Below are positions 7,878 through 32,582 of a stretch of DNA of 64,000 nt, one piece after another. Numbering within the stretch: position 1 is the stretch's first letter; each line of letters starts with the position of its first letter. This DNA is from Nitrospirota bacterium (GTDB lineage: Bacteria; Nitrospirota; Thermodesulfovibrionia; Thermodesulfovibrionales; UBA6898). The notes beneath the pieces are model-generated. The model did no database searches, was not told the DNA's origin, and was given only the letters and a program-made list of their open reading frames with translations. The stretch lies in NCBI GenBank assembly GCA_021811105.1, contig JAJZPM010000002.1, positions 1-64,000 on the forward strand. The letters are read 5' to 3'. The position numbers and the translations under genes are program-made.

Positions 7878-8327
7878 TCAGCCGAGCAACGAGGCGAGAC
7901 GTTTTGCGAGGGAGAAAAGAAAGACATGCCGGGAGAACCTCGAAGGCCGGAGTAGTCCCCTGGCGATGAGGATGCTGAACGGGAACCTGAGGTGAAAGTT
8001 GAATCCCCTGCCCGACACCCTGACCACCCTGCCGAGCGTGTTTTCGATGGAGGTGAAGCCGTCGTCTGTCAGACAGGCGTCGCCTCTCGTGACAACGCCG
8101 GAGGTCGTCACCTTTACGACGCGGTGAAGAATGAGCCTGCCTTCGGGTGCCTTGCAGAGGGTGGTATCGCCTATATGCAGGGACTGTGCGGGCTGCACGA
8201 CGACAGTGTCGCCGTCTTTAATAAAGGGCGACATGCTGGATCCGCCTGCGATAAAGGAGAGATTGTTCCCCTTTCGGAGCACCTCTTCGGCGATCCCGCG
8301 GAAATCGTCCATCCCGATATGGAACAT
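7878..8327 (-). CDS. S26-family signal peptidase-like protein (SipW/S26B type)
   Basis: A 149-residue peptidase-like protein. Residues 28-36 (GGSSMSPFI) match the signal-peptidase nucleophile motif (Ser31), followed by KDGDTVVV and HIGDTTL. The lysine general base of bacterial LepB is replaced by the LILHRVV motif (His68), as in SipW/ER-type S26B enzymes. Classical S26B proteins are membrane-anchored; here only a short C-terminal hydrophobic stretch is present (about 120-149), so it may be soluble or peripheral. It is divergent from the PqqD-like gene with about 110 bp between starts. Its placement suggests a role in removing the leader of the peptides encoded downstream, which is inference. 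ATG 8327 or 8312 could be the start. Confidence 0.75.
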   Translation of the reverse strand: MFHIGMDDFRGIAEEVLRKGNNLSFIAGGSSMSPFIKDGDTVVVQPAQSLHIGDTTLCKAPEGRLILHRVVKVTTSGVVTRGDACLTDDGFTSIENTLGRVVRVSGRGFNFHLRFPFSILIARGLLRPSRFSRHVFLFSLAKRLASLLG

Positions 8328-8438: not shown

Positions 8439-8732
8439 ATGCCCCTATCTTTGGAGAGCGTCCCGAGAAGAAGCTCGAAGGTCGTCTTCAGAAAGATCGA
8501 AAACGAGTATATCCTCGTCCCCCTGTTGTCCACGACCGAAGAAGCAGAATCCATCTTCAACCTGAACGAAATCGGCGCGGTCATATGGGAAAAGGTCGAC
8601 GGCGGCAAGAGCATCGCCGGTATAATCGACGAGCTCTGCAGAGAGTATGATGCCGACGCCGATACAATCCGCAAAGACGTATATGCCTTCATCAACGACC
8701 TCCAAGAATGCAGTCTCCTGGAACTGACATGA
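8439..8732 (+). CDS. PqqD-like RiPP recognition element protein
   Basis: A 97-residue protein of the PqqD family. These winged-helix RRE domains bind the leader of a precursor peptide and present it to the modifying radical SAM enzyme. Family features are visible: an alternating hydrophobic strand (ENEYILVPLLSTTEEAESIFNLNEIGAVIWEKVDGGKSI), then IIDELCREYDADADTIRKDVYAFINDL. The ATG at 8439 excludes an upstream antisense extension. The stop (8730-8732) overlaps the start of the radical SAM gene (8729), indicating translational coupling. Confidence 0.85.
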   Translation: MPLSLESVPRRSSKVVFRKIENEYILVPLLSTTEEAESIFNLNEIGAVIWEKVDGGKSIAGIIDELCREYDADADTIRKDVYAFINDLQECSLLELT

Positions 8733-9805
8733 AGACGCTGTCCTATGCCGACTTCAGCAGCAGGCTCCACGAGGCTTCTGCCGGCAAACGGATACCGGTC
8801 AATGCGACGCTGGAACTCACGTACCGGTGCAACAACCGCTGCGTCCACTGTTATTGTTCTCTCCCTGCGAATGACCCTTCGGCCGCCGGGGAGCTTTCGA
8901 CCGCCGAGATAAAGAGGCTCTTCGACGGCCTCGCTTCGATGGGCAGCCTCTGGCTTCTCCTCACCGGTGGAGAGCCGCTCCTCAGGGAAGACTTTGAAGA
9001 GATTTACATGCATGCAAAAAAGAAGGGGTTTCTCATCACCTTCTTTACAAACGGGACGATGGTCGATGAAGAGATCGTCGCACTTCTCGCAAAATATCCT
9101 CCGTTCGTCGTCGAAATAACCCTTTACGGATCAGCCGAAGAGACATATGAGAAGGTCACGCGCGTCAAAGGATCGTATAAGAAGTGTTTGAGCGGAATCG
9201 AGAAAATTCTAAAGGCGGGCATCCAGCTGAAACTCAAGACGATGGCGCTCACCATCAACCAACATGAGATCGCCGAGATGGACAGGATGGCGCGGGAATG
9301 GGGGTGCGAATTCAGATTCGATCCGGTCATCCAGAAACGGATAGACGGCAACGATTACTCCACCCCTGAGAGCTGCCGGATACCCCCCGAGGAGGTGGTC
9401 CAACTGGACAAGACGTTCCCGAAGAAAATGGAGGAATACAGGAAGTTCTGCGATAGGTTCATCAAGGGGCCCGCTGGCAGCAGGAGGCTTTATCGTTGCG
9501 GGGCAGGCGTAGGATCAGTCCACGTAAATCCCTGTGGTCTCGCGACGGGCTGCTCCATGATGGTACGGAACAGTTTTTCAGTGCGTGAGCATTCGCTGGG
9601 CTGGATCTGGGAAGAAGGGATACGGTCGGTAATCGACCGGGGGAAAGACTTTCCGCTCCCCTGCGATGACTGCCGACTGGTAAATCTCTGCGGCCAGTGC
9701 GCGGCATGGAGCATCCTAGAAAACGGGGGGCCTGAAAAAGAGGTTGAGTATTTGTGCAGGATAGCTAAAATAAAGGAGAAGGAATTCGATTTCCTGAGGA
9801 GATAA
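8729..9805 (+). CDS. Radical SAM/SPASM peptide-maturation enzyme
   Basis: A 358-residue enzyme. The CX3CX2C radical SAM motif (Cys34, Cys38, Cys41 in TYRCNNRCVHCYC) binds the [4Fe-4S] cluster that cleaves S-adenosylmethionine. The LTGGEPLL motif follows near residue 76. The C-terminal third has a SPASM-type cysteine set (YRCGAG, NPCGLATGC, CDDCRLVNLCGQC, EYLC) for auxiliary clusters. Such enzymes install thioether, C-C or epimer modifications on ribosomal peptides. The start at 8729 is chosen over 8708 because of the ATGA overlap with the PqqD-like gene. Two precursor genes follow 12 and about 210 bases after it. The specific reaction cannot be inferred. Confidence 0.92.
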   Translation: MKTLSYADFSSRLHEASAGKRIPVNATLELTYRCNNRCVHCYCSLPANDPSAAGELSTAEIKRLFDGLASMGSLWLLLTGGEPLLREDFEEIYMHAKKKGFLITFFTNGTMVDEEIVALLAKYPPFVVEITLYGSAEETYEKVTRVKGSYKKCLSGIEKILKAGIQLKLKTMALTINQHEIAEMDRMAREWGCEFRFDPVIQKRIDGNDYSTPESCRIPPEEVVQLDKTFPKKMEEYRKFCDRFIKGPAGSRRLYRCGAGVGSVHVNPCGLATGCSMMVRNSFSVREHSLGWIWEEGIRSVIDRGKDFPLPCDDCRLVNLCGQCAAWSILENGGPEKEVEYLCRIAKIKEKEFDFLRR

Positions 9806-9817
9806 AGAAGCGGAGTT

Positions 9818-9976
9818 ATGAAGCTGAAGAAATGGTCAAAGCCCGAGTGCACGCGGGTCAAACTGGTGCCCGAGGAAACGCTAGTTCAAGGGTGTAAGAC
9901 TATCTCCAGCGGTGGTAAGAATACGAATAACTGTCAAGCTGCTCCCGGCAACTCTTGCAATGTCGCTGTGAGTTAA
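9818..9976 (+). CDS. RiPP precursor peptide 1
   Basis: A 52-residue peptide with a CGGAG ribosome-binding site before the ATG. Its leader contains KKWSKPECTRVKLVPEE and ends at GCK (Cys26). The core (27-52) is Gly/Asn/Ser-rich with Cys39 and Cys47 and ends NVAVS. The leader is nearly identical to that of precursor 2, while the cores share no obvious similarity, as expected for substrates sharing one leader-dependent enzyme. It lies 12 bp after the radical SAM gene. It is too short for routine ORF calling. Product structure is unknown. Confidence 0.85.
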   Translation: MKLKKWSKPECTRVKLVPEETLVQGCKTISSGGKNTNNCQAAPGNSCNVAVS

Positions 9977-10013
9977 ACGACAGAACGGCCGCAATAGGAG
10001 GGGAATTCACTTT

Positions 10014-10187
10014 GTGAAAACCGGCGAAAAAAAGAAATGGTCAACGCCTGAATGCACGCGGGTAAAACTGGTGCCCGAGGAGTCTGTGCTCTGGGGATGC
10101 AAGACGTGGACTGGTTCTGTTGCAAAAGACGGTTTTTGGCAGGGAACATGTATCACCGGGGCATCGTGCCCCAGCTTACAGAGTTGA
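10014..10187 (+). CDS. RiPP precursor peptide 2
   Basis: A 57-residue peptide starting with GTG after a strong AGGAGGGG (9996-10003). The leader region KKWSTPECTRVKLVPEE and the GCK junction (Cys29) match precursor 1 at 19 of 24 aligned positions. The core contains Trp31, Trp42, Cys46 and Cys52 and ends SLQS. Both precursors therefore end in serine, next to an HprK-like kinase gene. An overlapping ORF in another frame (10052-10252) is not supported. Confidence 0.85.
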   Translation: MKTGEKKKWSTPECTRVKLVPEESVLWGCKTWTGSVAKDGFWQGTCITGASCPSLQS

Positions 10188-10238: not shown

Positions 10239-11126
10239 ATGCAGACATATAGATTTTCTATCGGCGAATTGCGAATACAGCTCAAGTGGCCTTCCGAGCG
10301 GTTTCAGGTCATTCTTGATTCTGCGCTCGACGCCTTTTCTGCCGCCGCCGATTCCGACCTTGCGGACATCTCCTTCACTGTAACGGAACCTTATCCGATC
10401 GATTTCAGCTCTTATCGTGAGCTCTTCAGTTCGCTCCCGGGCGGCCTATGGAAGGCATGGAAATCGGCAGACGAAGAATCTTATATCTTTTCGCTTCACG
10501 AAGTCCTGACCGATAATAGCCCTTACCGTATCGCGGTGGCCGACAACACCATTCGGAAGATCGAGGTCTTCAGTCCTGACGCCGGCCGGAAGAGTATCAG
10601 CCCCCTCGAATACCCGCTTGACGAACTCGTCATATCCGGCCATCTGAACATCAACGGAATCGGGATGCTGCTCCACTCCGCTATGGTATCCCTGGACGGG
10701 CGAGGCTATCTCTTTTCCGGCACCTCAGGTTCCGGCAAGTCGACGATCTCGGAACTCTGGCAGGCTGAGAAGGAGGCCGAGGTCCTTACGGACGAAAGGG
10801 TCATCATCAGGGAAAAGGACGCGGCGCTATGGGCCTTCGGCACACCCTGGCACGGGACCGCCGGGGTCCACAGGAACAAAGGGGCGGTCATAGACAGGAT
10901 TTTTTTGCTGAGGCACAGCGACCGGAACGAATTGAAGAGGCTCTCGCCGATCGAGGCGGCTAACAGGCTTATGGTCAGGTGCTTCCCTACCTTCTGGCAC
11001 AAGGAGGGCATGCAGTTCGCCCTGGATTTCTGCGCCCGCATCGCCTCTGGAATCCCCTGCTACGAATTCGGGTTCGTCCCGGATGAATCCGCCGTGAATT
11101 TCATCATGGCGTCGCTCGTAAAATAG
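10239..11126 (+). CDS. HprK-like P-loop kinase of the peptide cassette
   Basis: A 295-residue protein resembling the C-terminal kinase domain of HPr kinase/phosphorylase. It has a histidine-containing LLHSAMV strand (His146), a P-loop GTSGSGKST (161-169), and LTDERVII in the position of the HprK L-x-DD segment. The N-terminal 130 residues are unlike HprK. Related HprK-like proteins occur in several RiPP cassettes, and the lasso-peptide kinase of the paeninodin cluster phosphorylates a C-terminal serine. It follows precursor 2 by 51 bp on the same strand. Phosphorylation of the terminal serines is a hypothesis. Confidence 0.82.
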   Translation: MQTYRFSIGELRIQLKWPSERFQVILDSALDAFSAAADSDLADISFTVTEPYPIDFSSYRELFSSLPGGLWKAWKSADEESYIFSLHEVLTDNSPYRIAVADNTIRKIEVFSPDAGRKSISPLEYPLDELVISGHLNINGIGMLLHSAMVSLDGRGYLFSGTSGSGKSTISELWQAEKEAEVLTDERVIIREKDAALWAFGTPWHGTAGVHRNKGAVIDRIFLLRHSDRNELKRLSPIEAANRLMVRCFPTFWHKEGMQFALDFCARIASGIPCYEFGFVPDESAVNFIMASLVK

Positions 11127-11204
11127 TTGAGGAAAAGAGTGGCGCAGCAGCGAATTTCATTGACAAGTCTCCTCCATTTTGAAATAATAACTTCAGGGTT
11201 CCTA

Positions 11205-11678
11205 ATGATACAACGCTTATTTATATCCTTCACGTTTATCCTCGTTCTTTTCTCCGCAGCAACATTCGTCTCTGCGGCCGACTCCCCGAAGGATACCCTT
11301 TTAGGCCATAACGGCAAAGAAAAGGAAGTCTGCGGCCTCATCAAAGACAACCTGCAGCGGGGTGTCGGCGCAAAGGCGGTCACGAAGACGAATATCCGGC
11401 TGGGTAACGAGGTCTGTTATGTAGTCCGTTGTGCCATCGACGGAGGGGGAGAGCTGAAGCTAATCATTGCCGGCGCGGTCGAAGCGGGCGCTACCCCGGA
11501 CGTTGTCTCTAAGTGTTGCGTTGAGGCAGGCGCTGAACCGGCGAAGATAGCGGAAGTCCTTCAGGGCATGGGGGAAGGACTCGGCTATTCTCTACCGGGA
11601 GATCAGTTTGTCCCTATGGACACCGCGACGGTCGGCAGGAACGCCGGCACGAGGTTCGTCAGTCCCTCGTCTTTCTGA
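11205..11678 (+). CDS. Exported hypothetical protein, cysteine-containing
   Basis: A 157-residue protein with a clear signal peptide (MIQRLFISFTFILVLFSAAT... cleavage after VSA). The ATG at 11205 is preferred over the upstream TTG because it begins the signal peptide. The mature part has paired cysteines (KEVCG, NEVCYVVRC, SKCCVEAGA) and a repeat-like alternation of GAxPxxV helices. I do not recognise the family. It lies 78 bp after the kinase gene and might belong to the cassette transcript, but nothing in its sequence ties it to peptide maturation. Confidence 0.7.
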   Translation: MIQRLFISFTFILVLFSAATFVSAADSPKDTLLGHNGKEKEVCGLIKDNLQRGVGAKAVTKTNIRLGNEVCYVVRCAIDGGGELKLIIAGAVEAGATPDVVSKCCVEAGAEPAKIAEVLQGMGEGLGYSLPGDQFVPMDTATVGRNAGTRFVSPSSF

Positions 11679-13792: not shown

Positions 13793-15373
13793 ATGAAAAG
13801 AAACTTTCTCTCTTTCATTGTAGTCACCCTCTTCATTCTTTTGCCGATTGCCGACTGTTTCGCTGAGGAAAAGTCCCCACCCGCTCCAATTGTCGATTCC
13901 GGTCATGCGGGTTCCCAAAGCGAGGTCGAGATCTCGGTATTCGCGACAAAGGGTGAGGCGGAAAAGCTCGCCGAGAAGGTGAGAACAGGCGGGTTCGAGA
14001 CAACGGTGCGCGAATACACTGCAAAAGGGGGCCGGACCGTTTATGGGGTTTTCGTGATAGTGCACGAAGCACCTCCGGGAGGGCGGGTCAGGTTACCGCT
14101 TATGGAATCCGGCAAAGAAGCAGTTTCCGGGGCACCGCCTCTGGGGGAGAGACCGATCGGCGTATCAGGGGTCCCGAAGGACATCTTTGCGAGGAGGGCG
14201 AGCTACTTCCATGCGGCGCTTGCCGTACAGGGGATTTATACCGACAATGCGTTCAACAGCAATACGTTCAAGAAAAGCGACTTCAGCACCATATACTCCC
14301 CTGAATTCTGGGTGTCGGTGCCGCGTCTGAACCAGAGGCCGGAGGGGCTCGGGAGCATATCTCCCCAGTCGCCGGGCGGACTCCTGATCGGAAGGGGGCC
14401 TTACGACATGTCGAGACGGTATCAGGCATATGCCCATTATCAGGCCGACATCCCGCAGCATTCGCAGAACTCTCCTTCCGGCAACACGACGGTCCACACC
14501 GCAGAAGGGGGATTCACCTATAACCTTGCCAGCGGGGTATCCCTCGACCTGCGGGACACCTTCATCCGCTCCTACGAGACGGTAGACACGGCGGCACTGA
14601 CGGGGGCGGGAGAAGTCGACCGATACAAAGGCAATCTCTTCTATCTGCTCATCTCATACGACACGGGGAACAGGTTTCGCGTGAGATTCGATTACTCTAA
14701 TTTTCTGATCAGATATGATGCGGAGAGGAACTTCCCCAGGAACCGGACGGACAATTCGTTTTCCGGATACCTCTACTACAAACTGAAGGCGAAGACCTCG
14801 CTTTTCGTCCAGTATTCGTTTGTCGACGTAGGGTATGTGGAGGACGCAAGCCTGAACAGCACCGAACACGACGTCTACGGAGGACTCGAGTGGGACATCA
14901 CCGCCAAGTCCAAAGGCAGCGTCAAGGCCGGCTACGGGACCAAGGACTTCTCGAATTCGGGGACAAAGAACGACAGCCTTATCTTCGAGGCGAAGATAGA
15001 CCACCGGTTTACCCCTAAAACGTCTCTGGGGCTGACCGCATTCAGGAAGACCGGCGAAACCAATATCCCTTCCACGTTCTTCGTGCTCGCCCAGGGCGTG
15101 AGCGCCGATTATCAGCAGCTCCTCACGTCGCGTATCACTGGCTCCGTAATGCTCTCCTATACAAACGAAAAATACGGCGCCGACCTCACTATAGGGGAAA
15201 ACACTGCCGAAAGGAGAGACAACATATACCAGGCATCTCTCGGCTTTCAGTACGAGTTCAGAAAATGGCTCAAGGCAGGAATCGTCTATGTGTTCACCAA
15301 GGACGACTCGACCTTTCCCGAGTTCGATTATTCGTCGAACACCTGGTTTTTCAGGATAACTGGTTCTCTGTAA
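13793..15373 (+). CDS. Outer-membrane beta-barrel protein of exopolysaccharide operon
   Basis: A 526-residue protein with a signal peptide (cleavage after CFA, residue 24). A SPOR-like peptidoglycan-binding stretch (about 44-90, VEISVFATKGEAEKLAEKVR) is followed by a long region of alternating amphipathic strands rich in Tyr, Phe and Asp. The last strand ends WFFRITGSL, with a hydrophobic pattern typical of barrel closure. Barrels of this type occur in EPS/PEP-CTERM loci, presumably as accessory export or assembly proteins. It is first in the operon with the Wza-like, Wzc-like and ligase-like genes. Confidence 0.8.
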   Translation: MKRNFLSFIVVTLFILLPIADCFAEEKSPPAPIVDSGHAGSQSEVEISVFATKGEAEKLAEKVRTGGFETTVREYTAKGGRTVYGVFVIVHEAPPGGRVRLPLMESGKEAVSGAPPLGERPIGVSGVPKDIFARRASYFHAALAVQGIYTDNAFNSNTFKKSDFSTIYSPEFWVSVPRLNQRPEGLGSISPQSPGGLLIGRGPYDMSRRYQAYAHYQADIPQHSQNSPSGNTTVHTAEGGFTYNLASGVSLDLRDTFIRSYETVDTAALTGAGEVDRYKGNLFYLLISYDTGNRFRVRFDYSNFLIRYDAERNFPRNRTDNSFSGYLYYKLKAKTSLFVQYSFVDVGYVEDASLNSTEHDVYGGLEWDITAKSKGSVKAGYGTKDFSNSGTKNDSLIFEAKIDHRFTPKTSLGLTAFRKTGETNIPSTFFVLAQGVSADYQQLLTSRITGSVMLSYTNEKYGADLTIGENTAERRDNIYQASLGFQYEFRKWLKAGIVYVFTKDDSTFPEFDYSSNTWFFRITGSL

Positions 15374-15438
15374 CCCCCGCTGCTCCGCCGCCGTTTCATT
15401 TCCTGTTGTTTTTCATTTATAATCTATAAGCGGAAATA

Positions 15439-16233
15439 ATGAAAAGATACTTTTTCGTCTTGCTTGCGGTCGTCTTTTTCTGCAGGGCCGAAATGACCTT
15501 CGCCCAGGATTATCTCGTTGGTGAAGAGGATATATTAAGGGTCACCGTCTACGATCATCCCGACCTCACCACTGTCGTGAGGGTCAGCGGCGACGGGGAG
15601 ATCAGGCTTCCGCTCATAGGGGACGTCAAGGTCTCCGGACTTTCCGTCACCCGGATTGCCGAAAAAATTTCGGGTCTCCTAGCCGACGGCTACATCGTGG
15701 ACCCGCATGTCACCGTGTTCGTCGAGGAGTTCAGGGCCAGAAAGACGATCATCATGGGACAGGTGAACAAGCCGGGCGTCTATACGCTGAGCGGCAATAC
15801 CACCTTTCTCGAGCTTCTTTCAAAGGCGGGCGGACTCACCAAGGATGCCGGGGACACGGCGATCATCAAGAGAAAGTCCGCCTCTCAGGGCATGCCGGAG
15901 CGCATCATCACGATCGACCTGAAGAAGCTCCTCGAGGAAGGAGATACGAGTTCGGACATCCCGCTGATGGACAACGACAACGTATATGTCGCAAAGGCGG
16001 GGGTCTTCTATATCACCGGCGAGGTGAAAAAACCCGACGCGTATAAATACGAGGAAGACACGACCGTGATAAAGGCGGTGACGATGGCCGGCGGGTTTAC
16101 GGACAAGGCGTCGACCGGCAAGGTGAAGATCATACGGAAGGTGCAGGGCAAGGAGAAGGTGATAGAGAACGCCGAAATGGACCAGGCGGTGCAGCCCGAC
16201 GACATAATCGTCATCCCGGAGAGCTTCTTCTGA
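15439..16233 (+). CDS. Wza-like polysaccharide export protein
   Basis: A 264-residue outer-membrane polysaccharide translocon component. A signal peptide ends near TFAQ (residue 23). The poly_export domain follows (DYLVGEEDILRVTVYDHPDL... VDPHVTVFVEEF). Two SLBB beta-grasp repeats are at about 99-160 (KTIIMGQVNKPGVYTLSGN) and 180-250 (FYITGEVKKPDAYKYEED). No lipobox is visible, unlike E. coli Wza, and the C-terminal membrane helix of Wza is absent, so it resembles shorter EpsE-type exporters. It pairs with the Wzc-like gene 27 bp downstream. Confidence 0.9.
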   Translation: MKRYFFVLLAVVFFCRAEMTFAQDYLVGEEDILRVTVYDHPDLTTVVRVSGDGEIRLPLIGDVKVSGLSVTRIAEKISGLLADGYIVDPHVTVFVEEFRARKTIIMGQVNKPGVYTLSGNTTFLELLSKAGGLTKDAGDTAIIKRKSASQGMPERIITIDLKKLLEEGDTSSDIPLMDNDNVYVAKAGVFYITGEVKKPDAYKYEEDTTVIKAVTMAGGFTDKASTGKVKIIRKVQGKEKVIENAEMDQAVQPDDIIVIPESFF

Positions 16234-16260
16234 GTTCCCGGCAGCGGACAGGATAAGGAC

Positions 16261-18459
16261 ATGGAAGAAGAGAAGGAGATACACTTAAGGGATTACCTGA
16301 AGATCATCGTCAAGAGGAGACAGCTCGCCTTCACGTTTTTTGGCGTAGTCTTCGCGCTGTCGCTGATACTGACCCTGTCGTCGACCCCCCTCTACATGGC
16401 GACAACCAAGGTCCTGATAGAAAAATCCGAGCCGAACAACCTCGCGATGATGAACATGTATTATACTCCGTACGACCCCGAGTTTTACGAGACGCAGTAC
16501 CAGCTCATCAAAAGCACATCCGTGGCGCAGAAGGTGGTCAAGGTGCTCAACCTCGACAAAACCTACAGCTCTTATTTCAGGGAAAAAGGGGAAGGTTTCA
16601 ATATCGTCGGCGGGACGATTGCATGGTTCAGGGACGTCTATTCGACGATCTTGAACGTGGCGGGAATGACCGGGCAGGCCCCGCCCGACCCGGCCGGCAA
16701 GGACGCCGAGTCCGAACTCCAGGCGAAGACGGACCGAATCGCAAAGACGATCGCGGGCTCGATTATAGTTACGCCGATCAAAAACAGCAAACTCGTCAAC
16801 ATCAGTTATCTGTCGGCGAACCCGGAATTTGCTGCGCTGATCGTAAATTCCGTGGCAAAGGCATATATCGAGGACCTTCTCGACATGAAGATGACCTCAT
16901 CCCGGTATGCGATGCGGTGGCTTACCGAGAAGGCAGAGGAAGAAAGGGTGAAACTCGAAAAGTCAGAAGAGGCGCTGCAGGAATATACCCGGGAGAAGGA
17001 CATCGTCACCCTCGAAAACAGGATCGCAATGGTCCCGGAGAAGCTCTCTGAGGTTGCGACGAAGATCGCCGCGGCCGAGACGAAGAGAAAGGAGATGGAA
17101 TCTCTCTACAACTCGGTAAAAGACCTTTCCAGGAACCCTGAGAAGGCTGACACCATACCCGCAATCGGCTCTGACCCCACTATTCAGTCCCTCCGGCTGC
17201 AGATATTCAAATCCGAGCAGAACATCAGCGACATGTCAAAAAAATACGGCCGGAAGCACCCTGCCATGATCACCGCCATGAACGACCTCAAGGGGCTGAA
17301 GGACAAGAAGGACCAGGAGATCAAAAGGGTGATCGAGTCGATCAAAAACGAGTATGAACTCGCCAAGGCGAACGAGGAGAACTTCCGCAAGATGGCCTCC
17401 CAGACAAAGGCCGATACGCTCAACCTGAACGAGAAATTTATCCAGTACGGCGCCCTCAAGAGGGAGGCGGAGACGAACAAGCAGCTGTTCGACGCGATCA
17501 TCAAAAAGATCAAGGAACAGGACATTACCCAGGACATCCAGACGGTCAATGTCTGGGTGGTAGAAAAGGCGGAGGTCCCCAAGTCGCCTGCAAAACCGAA
17601 TAAGGCCCGCAACATCCTGCTCGGACTCATCGTCGGTCTACTGGGAGGAATCGGTCTCACCTTTTTCGTGGAGTACCTCGACAATACTATCAAATCCGTC
17701 GAAGATACTGAAGCTAAACTAGGGGTGCCCGTACTCGGGGTCGTGACTCTCCTGAAGGACAAGGGGAAAAGCATGGACCAGATAGTGCGGGACGAGCCGC
17801 AATCAGCTTTTGCAGAGAGCTACAAGGTCCTGAGGACGGCGATACTCCTTTCCTCGGCCGTCAATCCGCCGAAGAATATCCTGATCACGAGCATATCGCC
17901 CGGTGAGGGAAAGACGGTGACTTCCGTCAATCTTGCGATGACGATCGCGCAGTCCGAGCACAAGGTCTTGCTTGTGGACAGCGACCTGAGGAAGCCGCGC
18001 ATCCACAAGATATTCGGAATGGACAATTCCAGGGGGCTCAGCACGTACCTCGCCGGTGCCTCCGACATGGACATCATCGGCAGGGACGTAGTCCCCAACC
18101 TGAGCATCATCCCCTCGGGCCCCATTCCGCCGAACCCCTCTGAGCTTCTCAGCTCCGGCAAGATGTTCGACCTTCTGAAGAGATTGAATGAGCTTTACGA
18201 TATTGTCATCTGGGACGCGGCCCCGCTTCTTACCGTCACCGACAGCCTCATCCTGAGCAAAATCCTCGACGGCACGATCATCGTGACGAAGGCGGGCGAG
18301 ACCACCTACGAGAACGTCGGCAGGGGGATGAAATCTCTCCACGACATCGAGGCGCATTTCCTCGGGGTCGTGATCAATGCGCTTGACGTGCGACATAGCG
18401 ATTATTATTATCACCGGTATTACAACTACGGCTCGGGCGAAAAGGACGCTTCAAAGTAG
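16261..18459 (+). CDS. Wzc-like polysaccharide co-polymerase with BY-kinase domain
   Basis: A 732-residue inner-membrane protein that controls chain length and export of polysaccharide. It has a Wzz domain with TM1 at about 24-42, a long coiled-coil periplasmic region (about 220-440), a PxP-containing TM2 region (KSPAKPNKARNILLGLIVG), then a bacterial tyrosine kinase domain. The kinase has Walker A SPGEGKT, Walker A' LLVDSDLRKP and Walker B DIVIWDAAP. The C-terminus has a tyrosine cluster (SDYYYHRYYNYG) that would be autophosphorylated. It is complete as a one-piece kinase. Confidence 0.94.
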   Translation: MEEEKEIHLRDYLKIIVKRRQLAFTFFGVVFALSLILTLSSTPLYMATTKVLIEKSEPNNLAMMNMYYTPYDPEFYETQYQLIKSTSVAQKVVKVLNLDKTYSSYFREKGEGFNIVGGTIAWFRDVYSTILNVAGMTGQAPPDPAGKDAESELQAKTDRIAKTIAGSIIVTPIKNSKLVNISYLSANPEFAALIVNSVAKAYIEDLLDMKMTSSRYAMRWLTEKAEEERVKLEKSEEALQEYTREKDIVTLENRIAMVPEKLSEVATKIAAAETKRKEMESLYNSVKDLSRNPEKADTIPAIGSDPTIQSLRLQIFKSEQNISDMSKKYGRKHPAMITAMNDLKGLKDKKDQEIKRVIESIKNEYELAKANEENFRKMASQTKADTLNLNEKFIQYGALKREAETNKQLFDAIIKKIKEQDITQDIQTVNVWVVEKAEVPKSPAKPNKARNILLGLIVGLLGGIGLTFFVEYLDNTIKSVEDTEAKLGVPVLGVVTLLKDKGKSMDQIVRDEPQSAFAESYKVLRTAILLSSAVNPPKNILITSISPGEGKTVTSVNLAMTIAQSEHKVLLVDSDLRKPRIHKIFGMDNSRGLSTYLAGASDMDIIGRDVVPNLSIIPSGPIPPNPSELLSSGKMFDLLKRLNELYDIVIWDAAPLLTVTDSLILSKILDGTIIVTKAGETTYENVGRGMKSLHDIEAHFLGVVINALDVRHSDYYYHRYYNYGSGEKDASK

Positions 18460-18551
18460 CGGCGATTCCAACGCAGTTTTTCGGGGATCGGTAGTTCGAC
18501 ATCAAACCGGGGCAGCCTGTCCCCGGAACGGAAAGAGGAATACCTGAAGGG

Positions 18552-20891
18552 ATGAAAGGCACGATATTCCTGATCTTTATTTTCCTGCTGGTCTTCCCGC
18601 CCCTTGCCTTCGGCACGGTCGAACATTGGTCGTATGCGGTGATGGAAGGCCTCACTTTTGTCTCCCTCGTGCTGTTCTTGTACAAAAGCGGGGAGGGAAA
18701 GGAACATCCCCTTTACCGGGTCCCGGGGGTCGTCCCGATCACGGTATTCCTGTTCTATATCCTTCTGCAGCTCGTTCCGCTTCCGCCCTTCCTGTTAAAA
18801 CTGGCCTCGCCGGGTACCCACGCCCTGTATACGGAAACCCTTTGGGCTGCAGAACCGGATTCATGGGGCTCCCTTTCCGTCAACAAAAGGGCGACGCTGG
18901 GCGAATTCTTCAGGATCGCCTCGTATGCCGCCTTCTATATACTCACCGTGCAGCTGCTGTCCCGTAAGGACTTGCTGAAAAAGACCGTCCGCATAGTTGC
19001 GGTCTTTATCGCCGGCCTCTCCTTTTTCGGCATGATCCAGCATTTTCTCTGGAACGGGAAGATATATTGGATCAGGGAATTGACGCTCGGGGGGACCCCT
19101 TTCGGTCCGTTTGTCAACCGCAACCACTATGCAGGCCTCGCAGGGATGGTCCTGCCTCTGGTCCTCTGCCTCTTCCTCTATTACCGGCCCCGCTACGCCT
19201 ATGTATCCCGCAGGGACAGGATAGTCGAATTCCTGAGCCATCCGATGACGAACATCCACTTACTCATCGGGTTTGCGGTCGTACTGATCGGGACATCGGT
19301 CTTCCTGAGCCTCTCGCGGGGCGGCATCATAAGTCTTTGTCTTTCGCTGCTCTTTCTGGCCAGCATGAAAATGCACAGGGGGAGGCAGGGCAGGGGGTGG
19401 ATATTCGGCGTTCTTATTATACTGGTCGTCTTCTATTCGGTCGGATGGTTCGGCTGGGACAAAGTGTTTCAGAGATTCGACTCCATCAGGGACACCCGGG
19501 GCAATATCACCGAGATGCGACTGCAGATATGGAAGGACAGCCTCGGCATCATAAAGGACTTCCCTCTTACAGGGACAGGTCTCGGCAGCTACATGAGCAT
19601 CTATCCTAAATATCGGTCCGTCCCTGCGGACGGGATTGTCGATCACGCCCATAATGATTACCTCGAACTCTTCTCCGATGGCGGCCTTATCGGCGCGGCA
19701 CTCTTCGGCTGGTTTTTGTATTCGGCCCTCGGCGGGACATACGCCGTCTTCCTGAGGAGACGGGAGCGCTACTCGGTTTCTCTCTTTATGGGTGCAGTCG
19801 CCGGCATCGTTTCCATCCTTATCCACAGTCTTACCGATTTCAATCTTCACATCGGAGCAAACGGACTCTACTTCTTCTTTCTTCTGGGGCTTGCGGTCTC
19901 GGCGGCGCATACGCGGATGCAGGACAGCCTGGAGGAGACATTACTGGCGAAGGCGACTCGTTTCAGTCCGCAGCTGCTGCTCCTGCCCGCGCTTGCGGTC
20001 CTGACGGCAGGCACGGTATTCAACGGCGGCGTTCTGGCGGCGAAGGCCGCTCTTTTCCCTCTCGGGGTAAAACCTCTCACGGCGCGGACATCGAAGACGG
20101 AACTCGGGACGGCGAAGGAGGCACTTCGCCGGGCAATTTTTTTCGACCCACTCTATGCGGAATATCGTTACCGGCTCGCGAACGCCGGGTGGTTTTTGGC
20201 AGACAAGAAAAGTGCGCAGGACAATTACGGCAAAGCGGTCAGTCTCTCCCCTGCTGACGGCAAGTACCTCCAGGCGCTCGGGTCCGTCCTGTCAAAGGCC
20301 GGAGAGGACAACAGGGCCGACCGCCTGTTCCTGGGCGGGCTGAGGTGCGACAGGGAAAACCCGCGGCGTTACCGGAGTTACGCGCTGTGGCTTCTTGCAA
20401 AGGGGAAGAGGGTAGAGGCGCTCGACTATCTGAAGTCCGCGATCGCCCTGGAGCCCGACAACACAAGGGATTATATCACGCTTCTCGTACTCTCCGGGTG
20501 GGATGATGCCGCGATCGGGTCCGTTCTTCCCGATATGGCAGCGCCCCGCATGCTCTTCGCCGACTATCTGGCCCATACAGGGAACAGGGCCATGGCCATG
20601 GAGGAATACCGTCTTGCCATAGGGCTTGTGAAAAACGATGCAGGGCCGGGACCCGCATACTTTTATCAGGCTTACCGCTACTTCATGCAAACCGGTATGC
20701 CGGACGACGCCCTGTCGGCGATGAGGAGGGCCGAAGAATTATTCCCGGCTGACGCAGGCATCAAGTTGACACTCGCAGAGACATATGAAAAGGCCGGGAT
20801 AGCGTACAGGGCGGCGGAAGAATACCGCAAGGTACTGATCATCGATCCCGGCAACGCAACGGCCAGGAAGAAGCTTGCGGAATCAAAATAG
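18552..20891 (+). CDS. O-antigen ligase/polymerase-like protein with TPR tail
   Basis: A 779-residue integral membrane protein with about 11-12 predicted membrane segments in residues 1-510. The Wzy_C/O-antigen ligase signature includes FLSLSRGGIISL and a following periplasmic loop with HAHNDYLELFSDGG, containing the histidine typical of WaaL/Wzy enzymes. The C-terminal 240 residues form TPR repeats (for example AKEALRRAIFFDPLYAEYRYRLANAGW and AEEYRKVLIIDPGNATARKKLAE). It likely polymerises or transfers the operon's polysaccharide. A 92-bp gap separates it from the Wzc-like gene. Confidence 0.88.
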   Translation: MKGTIFLIFIFLLVFPPLAFGTVEHWSYAVMEGLTFVSLVLFLYKSGEGKEHPLYRVPGVVPITVFLFYILLQLVPLPPFLLKLASPGTHALYTETLWAAEPDSWGSLSVNKRATLGEFFRIASYAAFYILTVQLLSRKDLLKKTVRIVAVFIAGLSFFGMIQHFLWNGKIYWIRELTLGGTPFGPFVNRNHYAGLAGMVLPLVLCLFLYYRPRYAYVSRRDRIVEFLSHPMTNIHLLIGFAVVLIGTSVFLSLSRGGIISLCLSLLFLASMKMHRGRQGRGWIFGVLIILVVFYSVGWFGWDKVFQRFDSIRDTRGNITEMRLQIWKDSLGIIKDFPLTGTGLGSYMSIYPKYRSVPADGIVDHAHNDYLELFSDGGLIGAALFGWFLYSALGGTYAVFLRRRERYSVSLFMGAVAGIVSILIHSLTDFNLHIGANGLYFFFLLGLAVSAAHTRMQDSLEETLLAKATRFSPQLLLLPALAVLTAGTVFNGGVLAAKAALFPLGVKPLTARTSKTELGTAKEALRRAIFFDPLYAEYRYRLANAGWFLADKKSAQDNYGKAVSLSPADGKYLQALGSVLSKAGEDNRADRLFLGGLRCDRENPRRYRSYALWLLAKGKRVEALDYLKSAIALEPDNTRDYITLLVLSGWDDAAIGSVLPDMAAPRMLFADYLAHTGNRAMAMEEYRLAIGLVKNDAGPGPAYFYQAYRYFMQTGMPDDALSAMRRAEELFPADAGIKLTLAETYEKAGIAYRAAEEYRKVLIIDPGNATARKKLAESK

Positions 20892-30206: not shown

Positions 30207-32582
30207 ATGAGATCATTCCTGTCTGCGATCTTATGCATTGTCTGCGGGCTGGCCGTCCCCTTCAGTGCACACGCAGAGCCCGCCGCTCAACCTCTGCAAA
30301 GTCTGCATGCCGAGCGGCTTGCAGCCATAGCCGATATCGTAGAAACATCGGTCCGCGACCGGAAGACACCGGGGGCCGTTGTCCTGGTCGGTAATCGGGA
30401 TGAGGTGGTTTATCGCCGGGCATTCGGTTTCCGCTCACTCGAGCCGGAGAAGGCGCCCATGACCGAAGACACCGTATTCGACCTCGCATCGCTGACCAAA
30501 GTAGTCGCAACCACTACCGCGATCATGCAACTGGCCGAAAAAGGAAAGCTGGACATCGAGTACCCTGTTGACCGCTATTGGCGGGCGTTCGGGAAAAACG
30601 GTAAGGGGAAGATCACCGTGAGACAGCTCCTTACGCATTATTCCGGACTCCGCCCTGACCTTAGCCTGAGGCCTCAGTGGTCGGGGTACAGAAATGCGAT
30701 GCGGAAGATCGTCGCCGAAAAGCCCGTCATTCCCCCGGGGACAGGGTATATCTACAGCGATATCAATTTTGAAGTGCTCGGCGAACTTGTCCGGCGGGTC
30801 TCGGGACTTTCCCTCGACAAATACTGTTCGACATATATCTTCGGCCCTCTCGGGATGAGAGACACCGTTTTTTTGCCTCCTGTTTCCCTGCAGAGACGCA
30901 TTGCACCCACCCAGTATTACCTCGGCAAGATGCTCTGCGGAAAGGCACATGATCCCTCGTGTTTTCGCATGGGCGGTGTGGCAGGGCATGCCGGGCTTTT
31001 TTCGACGGCAGACGACCTCTCCCGCTTCGCACGGATGCTCCTGAACAAAGGGAGCTACCAGGGAAAAAAGATCCTCAGCCCGAAGTCAATCCAGGAGATG
31101 ACCATGCCACAGTCGCCTCCCGGCGGGAAAAAGCTGCGGGGTTTCGGATGGGAGATTGAACGACCGCTCGGGTCCGACGGCGAAGGATCTTCTTCTTCCG
31201 GGGCATACGGGCATCTCGGCTATACGGGGACAGCGCTCTGGATAGACCCTGCGACAGAAACATACATCATTCTCCTGACTAACCGCGTCCATCCCGACGG
31301 CAAAGGCGACGTAAAGGAACTGCGGGCCGGGATCAAAAGGGTCGTTGCCGATGCACTGAGGTCCGTCTCTGCCGGACAGGTTCCTGCGAAGGGGCACTCT
31401 CCGGCGGCTTTTTATGCTTCCGCCAAAAAAGGGCCGCTGCGCGATCCGGCAGGCGAAAAGGTGATGACCGGTATCGATGTGCTGTCCGCCGGAGATTTCC
31501 TGCCGCTGAAGGGCTTGCGTGTGGGACTCGTGACCAATAATACCGGTCTCGATTCCGGGGGACGCAGCACTCTCGATCTCCTCTTTAACGCGCCGGGCGT
31601 ACATCTCAAGGCAATCTTCAGTCCTGAACACGGCCTATCGGGTACATACGACAGGGAGATCAAATCCGGAACAGACCCCGGCACCGGACTGCCGGTATAC
31701 AGCCTTTACGGCAAGGTCAGGAGACCGACCGGGGAAATGCTCACCGGTCTTGATGCGCTCGTATTCGATATCCAGGATGCGGGTGTCCGCTTTTACACCT
31801 ACATCACTACTCTGGGATATGCGATGGAGGCCGCTGCCAGCAACAGGATCGCGTTCTACGTTCTTGACAGGCCCGACCTGCTAAATGCCACATCGGTCCA
31901 GGGACCGGTTATGGACAAAGGCTTGAGGTCTTTCACCGGTTACTTCCCCTTGCCCGTGCGGTACGGCATGACAGTCGGCGAGCTTGCAGAGATGTTCAAC
32001 AGTGAAAACAGGATAGGCGCGGACCTGCACGTGGTCAGGATGTCCGGATATGCGCGCTCCGATTGGTTCGACGAGACAGGATTGCGGTGGACGAACCCTT
32101 CACCGAACCTTCGCAGCCTCACGGAGGCGACTCTTTACCCTGGCGTTGCGATGGTCGAGGGCGCAAACGTAAGTGTCGGGCGCGGAACGGGCACGCCGTT
32201 CGAACTCCTTGGGGCCCCATGGATCGATGGGCAGAAACTCGCGCGCTATCTGAGGGACCGGAAGATAGCAGGGGTGTTTTTTTCTCCGGCCGTGTTTACG
32301 CCCAACAGTGACAGATATAAGCACAAAGAGTGTCATGGAGTCAGGATGACGATGACGAACAGGGAGACGCTGGACATAGCCCGCATGGGCATCGAAATCG
32401 CGGCGGCGCTCCATAAGCTATATCCAAAAAAATTCCGTCTTGATGACACACTCGGCGTCATCGGATCACGCAGGACCCTGCAGTACCTTAGGGACGACAT
32501 GTCCCCACGATCAATCGCGCTCCACTGGAAAAAGGACATCGACCACTTTCTCGCCCTGCGCTCGAAATATCTGCTGTACTGA
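30207..32582 (+). CDS. AmpC-like serine hydrolase fused to NamZ (DUF1343) exo-muramidase
   Basis: A 791-residue exported fusion (signal peptide ends SAHA, residue 23). Residues about 35-395 form a beta-lactamase/penicillin-binding-protein-like serine hydrolase, with SLTK (Ser95, Lys98) and a YSD box replacing YxN. Residues about 415-790 are a DUF1343 domain with SPEHG, FDIQDAGVRFYTY, WTNPSPN and VGRGTGTPFE, the family of NamZ enzymes that cleave terminal N-acetylmuramic acid from peptidoglycan chains. A role in muropeptide recovery or recycling is inferred. It is third gene of the deacetylase-DUF4015 operon. Confidence 0.88.
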   Translation: MRSFLSAILCIVCGLAVPFSAHAEPAAQPLQSLHAERLAAIADIVETSVRDRKTPGAVVLVGNRDEVVYRRAFGFRSLEPEKAPMTEDTVFDLASLTKVVATTTAIMQLAEKGKLDIEYPVDRYWRAFGKNGKGKITVRQLLTHYSGLRPDLSLRPQWSGYRNAMRKIVAEKPVIPPGTGYIYSDINFEVLGELVRRVSGLSLDKYCSTYIFGPLGMRDTVFLPPVSLQRRIAPTQYYLGKMLCGKAHDPSCFRMGGVAGHAGLFSTADDLSRFARMLLNKGSYQGKKILSPKSIQEMTMPQSPPGGKKLRGFGWEIERPLGSDGEGSSSSGAYGHLGYTGTALWIDPATETYIILLTNRVHPDGKGDVKELRAGIKRVVADALRSVSAGQVPAKGHSPAAFYASAKKGPLRDPAGEKVMTGIDVLSAGDFLPLKGLRVGLVTNNTGLDSGGRSTLDLLFNAPGVHLKAIFSPEHGLSGTYDREIKSGTDPGTGLPVYSLYGKVRRPTGEMLTGLDALVFDIQDAGVRFYTYITTLGYAMEAAASNRIAFYVLDRPDLLNATSVQGPVMDKGLRSFTGYFPLPVRYGMTVGELAEMFNSENRIGADLHVVRMSGYARSDWFDETGLRWTNPSPNLRSLTEATLYPGVAMVEGANVSVGRGTGTPFELLGAPWIDGQKLARYLRDRKIAGVFFSPAVFTPNSDRYKHKECHGVRMTMTNRETLDIARMGIEIAAALHKLYPKKFRLDDTLGVIGSRRTLQYLRDDMSPRSIALHWKKDIDHFLALRSKYLLY

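Follow-up and report, generated by a model that had tools for sequence, protein, structure and literature searches.

Gene Content of the Locus

The window, that is, the whole 64,000-nucleotide stretch of Nitrospirota DNA analysed here, contains a five-part cluster made up of a PqqD-type protein, a SPASM radical SAM enzyme, two precursor peptides, an HprK-like kinase and a signal peptidase (Table 1). In our judgement it is almost certainly a RiPP cluster. The signal peptidase is a divergent one of the archaeal type, which the earlier note on this DNA had omitted. It scores 38.8 bits against TIGR02228, below the cut-off of 51.85, and 23.5 against the 23.3 of PF00717, and its Ser, His and Asp are kept in at least 96% of 108 relatives.

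Table 1. Features of the cluster and its surroundings in the window
Feature	Position	Strand	Details
Archaeal-type signal peptidase (SpI-like), probable leader peptidase	7878..8327	-	S31, H68, D83
PqqD-family RiPP recognition protein	8439..8732	+	97 aa, start codon uncertain; PF05402 3.3e-19
Radical SAM/SPASM peptide maturase	8708..9805	+	365 aa; PF04055 3.6e-26
Precursor peptide A1	9818..9976	+	52 aa, ATG start; leader KKWSKPECTRVKLVPEETLVQG; core from C26; end ...NVAVS
Precursor peptide A2	10014..10187	+	57 aa, GTG start, AGGAGG upstream; core ...TWTGSVAKDGFWQGTCITGASCPSLQS
HprK-like kinase	10239..11126	+	295 aa; H146, K167, T169, D185, E186
Small Cys-containing protein, apparently secreted	11127..11678	+	directly 3' of the kinase; signal-like N-terminus
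Polysaccharide (exopolysaccharide) export genes	13793-20891		downstream of the cluster
Beta-lactamase-fold domain joined to NamZ exo-muramidase	30207-32582		single ORF

Pfam and NCBIfam scans gave no family above cut-off for the small protein that follows the kinase, and its homologues adjoin the cluster in five other loci (L063, L067, L068, L074 and L098); an accessory role is possible. No exporter was recognised beside the cluster among the flanking ORFs scanned in the window.

The Two Precursor Peptides

Both precursor ORFs are complete. Their leader segments, KKWSKPECTRVKLVPEETLVQGCK in A1 and KKWSTPECTRVKLVPEESVLWGCK in A2, are identical at 19 of 24 residues and differ at five, which bears out the near-identity that had been claimed for them; at the DNA level 56 of the 72 bases match, with 13 codons identical, six changed synonymously and five non-synonymously. 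The cores, TISSGGKNTNNCQAAPGNSCNVAVS and TWTGSVAKDGFWQGTCITGASCPSLQS, have two cysteines and the terminal Ser in common and little else, so the earlier description of divergent cores with shared cysteines and a Ser at the end of both peptides stands as well. The terminal Ser codon is AGT in each, followed by TAA in A1 and TGA in A2. A third Cys common to the two peptides sits in GCK, the last residues of the leader segment, where it is invariant across the precursor family and probably begins the core. Scans of NCBIfam and Pfam returned no family for either peptide.

The two cores differ in how they vary among relatives. Five genomes from two genera (the host genome G000, G001, G004, G011 and G017) share a near-identical A2 core; the two closest pairs of A2-type cores both have a dN well below dS, and for A2 in G000 and G004 the values are 0.06 and 0.40. 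The A1 core is far more variable, with dN 0.62 and dS 0.82 against the same-genus relative G001. From these few genomes, A2 may have a fixed role and A1 may be diversifying. The pair is unlikely to be two chance ORFs, since homologues of both adjoin the same enzymes elsewhere and dN of A2 is well below dS.

Distribution and Conservation of the Gene Set

Of 61 relatives, 25 carry precursor homologues, and so do 43 of the 176 genomes of the host's order within the Nitrospirota. Stretches of 3-19 kb were read around each of 40 such homologues, and the 26 loci with at least 3.5 kb of contig on both sides of the precursor were scored for their gene content. In 25 of them the precursor is accompanied by the PqqD protein, the radical SAM enzyme, the kinase and the signal peptidase. 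The 26th (L092) holds a solitary precursor-like copy with no partner gene and no terminal Ser, and was set aside as degenerate. The kinase or the precursor has been moved or flipped in seven loci (L062, L070, L078, L079, L093, L094 and L096); as gene order and strand vary in this manner, the grouping is not mere inherited synteny.

The same gene set extends well beyond the order. When a single genome from each species was scanned with the radical SAM alignment as the query, the set was found in Thermodesulfobacteriota, Myxococcota, Omnitrophota, Kiritimatiellota, Verrucomicrobiota and Aminicenantes, and in MAGs named Methanomicrobiales, a type of genome bin that may be contaminated. A separate search that started from the kinase was positive in 76 of 395 Nitrospirota genomes, 31 of them from the family that includes the named Nitrospira. 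The Nitrospira clusters (L123, L143 and L215-L241, with L123 and L232 representing one and the same sequence region) have three radical SAM ORFs each, and their precursors, two or three in a row in several loci, mostly end in DSG-x-R-[AP/L/V]-S. Remoter clusters (L249, L252, L253 and L254) combine two or three radical SAM enzymes with a kinase and an SpI peptidase, and carry runs of Cys- and Gly-rich precursors, four in tandem in L253, that have no [HEQ] leader and mostly no terminal Ser; these clusters are possibly another family.

Several other genes recur beside the cluster in relatives, among them a C25 peptidase, a porin and a Wzc-like protein but no cyclase, and an ABC transporter family lies near it in five of the order-level loci. 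The C25 (gingipain-family) peptidase gene, mostly giant, adjoins the cluster in 18 of the 40 order-level loci (L061, L065-L067, L069, L072, L074, L075, L077, L081, L082, L084, L085, L089, L091, L095, L098 and L100) and, in other phyla, in five of 20 loci with kinase and precursor (L107, L112, L120, L122 and L125); in L132 it stands beside a kinase with no precursor detected. A search of the host genome for the C25 peptidase gave no match, and neither did the control search.

Leader, Core and Radical SAM Enzyme

When the precursors are aligned on the invariant Cys, a regular pattern precedes it. The aromatic residue of a [Y/W]xxP motif lies exactly 20 residues upstream in 89 of 100 precursors; position -12 is Val or Ile in 92, position -10 is Leu in 86, position -3 is Leu in 69, and position -1 is Gly, Ala, Thr or Ser in 87. 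The positions -1, -3 and -10 are reminiscent of those recognized by LppS, an SpI peptidase that needs its S29/H68/D93 residues and an RRE, and that cuts after T-1 of a leader in which L-10, F-3 and T-1 matter (PMC13381572). By analogy with LppS, a cut by the SpI-like peptidase just before the invariant Cys is our best prediction, and we hold it to be probable. The LxGC sequence at this site also resembles a lipoprotein signal; that reading was rejected, as there is no hydrophobic stretch, acidic residues stand just before the site, and the peptidase is SpI-type rather than type II. The cores predicted from the invariant Cys onward span 16-58 residues. A1 and A2 both have Thr at the third position of the core; across the family this position is variable.

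The radical SAM enzyme has the features expected of a SPASM protein. Its CxxxCxxC at residues 41-48 and seven SPASM cysteines (264, 282, 319, 322, 328, 331 and 350) are invariant in 15 relatives, and the last SPASM pair is spaced CxxC, not CxxxC. None of the curated maturase families matched it above cut-off. Its nearest solved relatives in the PDB are SkfB, which is a sactisynthase, and PqqE. The conserved core cysteines, proposed in the earlier note as thioether donors, make thioether formation plausible, though we would give it somewhat less than an even chance; epimerisation, carbon-carbon links and other radical SAM chemistries are also possible.

Might the product simply be a peptide with thioethers of the sactipeptide or ranthipeptide type, for which phosphorylation is minor or absent? 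SkfB is the closest match in the PDB and 71 of 100 precursors have three core cysteines, a count that also answers the question of core Cys conservation raised in the earlier note. However, PqqE matches too, some cores have only two cysteines, and thioethers are compatible with phosphorylation rather than opposed to it. As this explanation would also leave the terminal Ser unaccounted for, we regard it as highly improbable.

The HprK-Like Kinase

The earlier note had placed an HprK-like gene next to the precursors, and structure prediction agrees: according to an AlphaFold2 model with a pLDDT of 94.8, the protein has the HprK/PEPCK fold together with a conserved His-Lys-Asp-Asp/Glu set, both as in the HPr kinase/phosphorylase superfamily. 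Foldseek ranked PEPCK (E 6e-7) ahead of HprK (E 1e-5 to 1e-4), and VIA-align returned PEPCK (Z 13.9) as well as HPr kinase/phosphorylase. An identity as a carboxykinase was considered and rejected, as PEPCK and HprK share one kinase fold. By sequence the protein does not fall within the superfamily, with scores below the cut-offs of both NCBIfam HprK_rel_A (29 bits) and Pfam Hpr_kinase_C (14.7 against 33.3). Every relative whose sequence spans these positions has His146, Lys167, Thr169 and an Asp or Glu at 186; Asp185 is present in 116 of 125. A search of plasmids with the kinase as the query gave only one weak match. The host genome, at 3.9 Mb, was found to have a single copy of the kinase.

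In six loci (L108, L113, L114, L119, L121 and L127) the kinase domain follows the radical SAM domain in a single ORF of 661-725 codons, with the catalytic residues of the kinase retained.

The C-Terminal Serine

The earlier note had suggested that the kinase might phosphorylate the C-terminal Ser, as an HprK-like kinase does in the paeninodin cluster, and that an alignment of homologues would tell whether this residue is conserved. The alignment largely favours the idea. All loci were searched with a profile of the leader only, so that the ends of the peptides were not selected for, and 93 of the 98 distinct complete precursors from kinase-bearing loci were found to end in Ser; grouped by similarity at about 60%, 51 of 56 clusters do. 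All six Ser codons are used at this position (TCA 25, TCG 20, TCC 16, AGT 15, TCT 9 and AGC 8). Upstream of it, the mean frequency of Ser across positions -2 to -15 is about 11%, with 3% at -2. It is worth pointing out that the profile first used to gather the precursor-first loci took in the peptide tail, which may bias them toward a terminal Ser. In two sets that were not chosen by precursor, the terminal Ser is present in 34 of 36 peptides (11 of 13 clusters) when the search starts from the kinase, and in 18 of 20 when it starts from the radical SAM enzyme.

The five exceptions deserve a closer look. Two of the 98 end in Thr (L098 and L236), and the other three, despite a kinase nearby, have no terminal hydroxyl residue at all: Cys in L119, Gly in L247 and Gln in L107. 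Precursors of this kind, lacking a C-terminal Ser near an HprK-like gene, had been named in the earlier note as what would speak against terminal phosphorylation. They do occur, but rarely, in these three loci and in the remoter kinase clades (L249, L250, L252 and L253), whose precursor ORFs, picked by motif and by eye, have other ends. A kinase tree of 94 loci, a quick build with many weak forks, has few non-Ser labels, some of them on branches that are long and uncertain, and the terminal Ser persists across its deep divisions. The rule of the terminal Ser is thus confined to one broad kinase clade; the remoter clades limit the rule and do not overturn it. The kinases of L119 and L107 have Glu at position 185, but so does that of L114, where the Ser is kept, so Glu185 is not a clean correlate of Ser loss. 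L119 comes from a cultured strain, Desulfosediminicola flagellatus (NZ_CP050698.1), and has the fused version of the kinase. Because its precursor ends in Cys, read-through of the TGA was considered; only two further codons precede the next stop, and the idea was dropped.

In our judgement the terminal Ser is quite likely to be phosphorylated by the kinase, as it is in paeninodin. One could argue instead that the kinase targets another residue, such as a Ser or Thr in the core, and that some other role preserves the terminal Ser, for instance docking to the kinase, the radical SAM enzyme or an exporter. There is a precedent in LppK, whose target is Ser3, close to the cleavage site (PMC13381572), and the termini are free to vary in the remoter kinase-bearing clades. 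The cores, however, offer no fixed hydroxyl residue: between positions -2 and -15 Ser never exceeds 37 of 98, neither Ser nor Thr is fixed at core position 3, and two of the five exceptions at the terminus are Thr. A different target is, on balance, rather unlikely.

A terminal phosphoserine could also be a leaving group, giving way to dehydroalanine (or being displaced directly) and ending in a Cys thioether ring as in lanthipeptides. Phosphorylation followed by elimination is established chemistry in class III and IV lanthipeptides, and both a kinase and conserved cysteines are at hand; but the conserved parts of the cluster include no lyase-like gene, and the HprK-like RiPP kinases described so far in two reports (PMC9266682, PMC13381572) all leave stable phosphates, which makes this route a slim prospect. 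It is very unlikely, too, that the kinase acts on a substrate other than the precursor peptide, for instance HPr or a sugar from the polysaccharide pathway next door, and that its place in the cluster is regulatory. The HprK fold and the exopolysaccharide export genes downstream would fit such a role, yet the pairing of the kinase with precursor and radical SAM enzyme survives rearrangement and crosses phyla, the kinase is fused to the radical SAM enzyme in six loci, and the presence of a terminal Ser goes with the kinase clade.

Comparison with Known Systems

Two groups of phosphorylated RiPPs come close to the phosphorylation and cleavage steps envisaged here. The lasso peptide kinases PadeK, ThcoK and SyanK phosphorylate the C-terminal Ser of their precursors, and a His-Lys-Asp-Asp set is essential in these enzymes (PMC9266682). 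The cluster in the window resembles the paeninodin type in its HprK-like kinase beside precursors with a strongly conserved terminal Ser, and in the [Y/W]xxPx motif of the leader. Unlike it, the cluster has a radical SAM enzyme and an SpI peptidase in place of the Asn-synthetase-like macrolactam cyclase; between 5626 and 13793 no ORF is large enough for a lasso cyclase, apart from an S1-like ORF.

The linear polyphosphorylated peptides (LPP), found mostly in Bacillota, carry a phosphate on Ser3 of the core and have free C-termini (PMC13381572). The lpp cluster of P. alginolyticus shares with ours an SpI-like leader peptidase with Ser, His and Asp, a discrete PqqD-type RRE, an HprK-like kinase, a leader with [Y/W]xxPx and with Leu at -10, a hydrophobic residue at -3 and a small one at -1 before the cut, variable cores and a neighbourhood of polysaccharide genes. 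The differences are just as clear. The LPP motif YxxPxVLxHQxIxFETxxS is not matched, as HQxIxFETxxS is absent and the spacing from Pro to Leu is 7 rather than 3; Ser3 belongs to LPP, while A1 and A2 have Thr at this position; the words radical SAM do not occur in PMC13381572, while such an enzyme is present here; and neither the NTP transferase nor the MsbA exporter of the lpp cluster was recognised beside ours, among the part of the flanking ORFs that was scanned.

The SynChlorMet cassette (NCBIfam ScmC, ScmD, ScmE and ScmF) also brings together a PqqD-like protein, SPASM radical SAM enzymes and an HprK-like protein, with two radical SAM enzymes to the one found here. The window's proteins score far from its curated cut-offs, at 23.8 against 125 for ScmC, 31.3 against 100 for ScmD, 81.4 against 400 for ScmE and 68.3 against 400 for ScmF, and the proteins of relatives likewise stay far below. 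No paper on SynChlorMet was found in our literature search, whose scope left out most subscription journals. Sactipeptide and ranthipeptide clusters (SkfB, CteB and PapB) have in common with ours a SPASM radical SAM enzyme and Cys-containing cores; to our knowledge, neither a kinase nor an SpI peptidase is part of their defining sets. Filing the cluster under LPP, paeninodin-type lasso peptides or SynChlorMet was rejected, as it departs from defining features of each. Most likely, it joins the logic of the paeninodin and LPP types with radical SAM chemistry.

A Proposed Pathway and Its Meaning

In the pathway we favour, the PqqD protein would bind the leader through the motif [Y/W]xxPx[L/I/V/C], and the SPASM enzyme would modify the Cys-containing core. 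The kinase would phosphorylate the C-terminal Ser of A1 and A2, once or several times, after which the SpI-like peptidase would remove the leader between the small residue at -1 (Gly, Ala, Thr or Ser) and the invariant Cys. The product would be a core of about 27-30 residues with Cys first and phosphoserine last. We consider the pathway as a whole likely, because the gene set is kept in spite of rearrangement, in 25 of 26 loci and in other phyla; because the terminal Ser is found in 93 of 98 precursors with all six codons, and in the kinase-first and radical-SAM-first sets too; because the kinase has an HprK/PEPCK fold in the model and is fused to the radical SAM enzyme in six loci; and because the lasso kinases (PMC9266682) and LppS (PMC13381572) offer precedents. 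It is weakened by the five of 98 precursors that lack a terminal Ser despite a kinase nearby, by a kinase that is far below the curated HprK cut-offs and closer to PEPCK in Foldseek, by the related LPP kinase that targets Ser3 rather than the terminus, and by the fact that no exporter was recognised beside the cluster among the flanking ORFs scanned in the window.

The precursor family is widespread and apparently undescribed. In the literature searched, with most subscription journals outside its scope, there was no paper that joins an HprK-like kinase with a radical SAM enzyme in a RiPP, no account of HprK with PqqD or of a C25 peptidase with PqqD or radical SAM, and no described RiPP from Nitrospira. 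A bolder view, which we put forward tentatively and with more doubt than confidence, is that these peptides make up a RiPP class of their own across many phyla, modified by radical SAM chemistry, with Cys first and (poly)phosphoserine last, and made jointly by a SPASM enzyme and a terminal-Ser kinase that are fused in some lineages. Their function in Nitrospira would then be a standing one at the cell surface or envelope and not that of an antibiotic, and in many lineages it would be tied to the giant C25 surface protein.

With this pathway the phosphorylated RiPPs, a small group, would gain radical SAM chemistry, and the substrate of many unassigned HprK-like kinases would become directly testable. 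The tandem precursors, with a common leader and different cores, and the kinase-radical SAM fusions offer ready substrates for studying how a single recognition protein can serve three enzymes. Nitrospira are important nitrifiers, and the cluster is present in many of their genomes.
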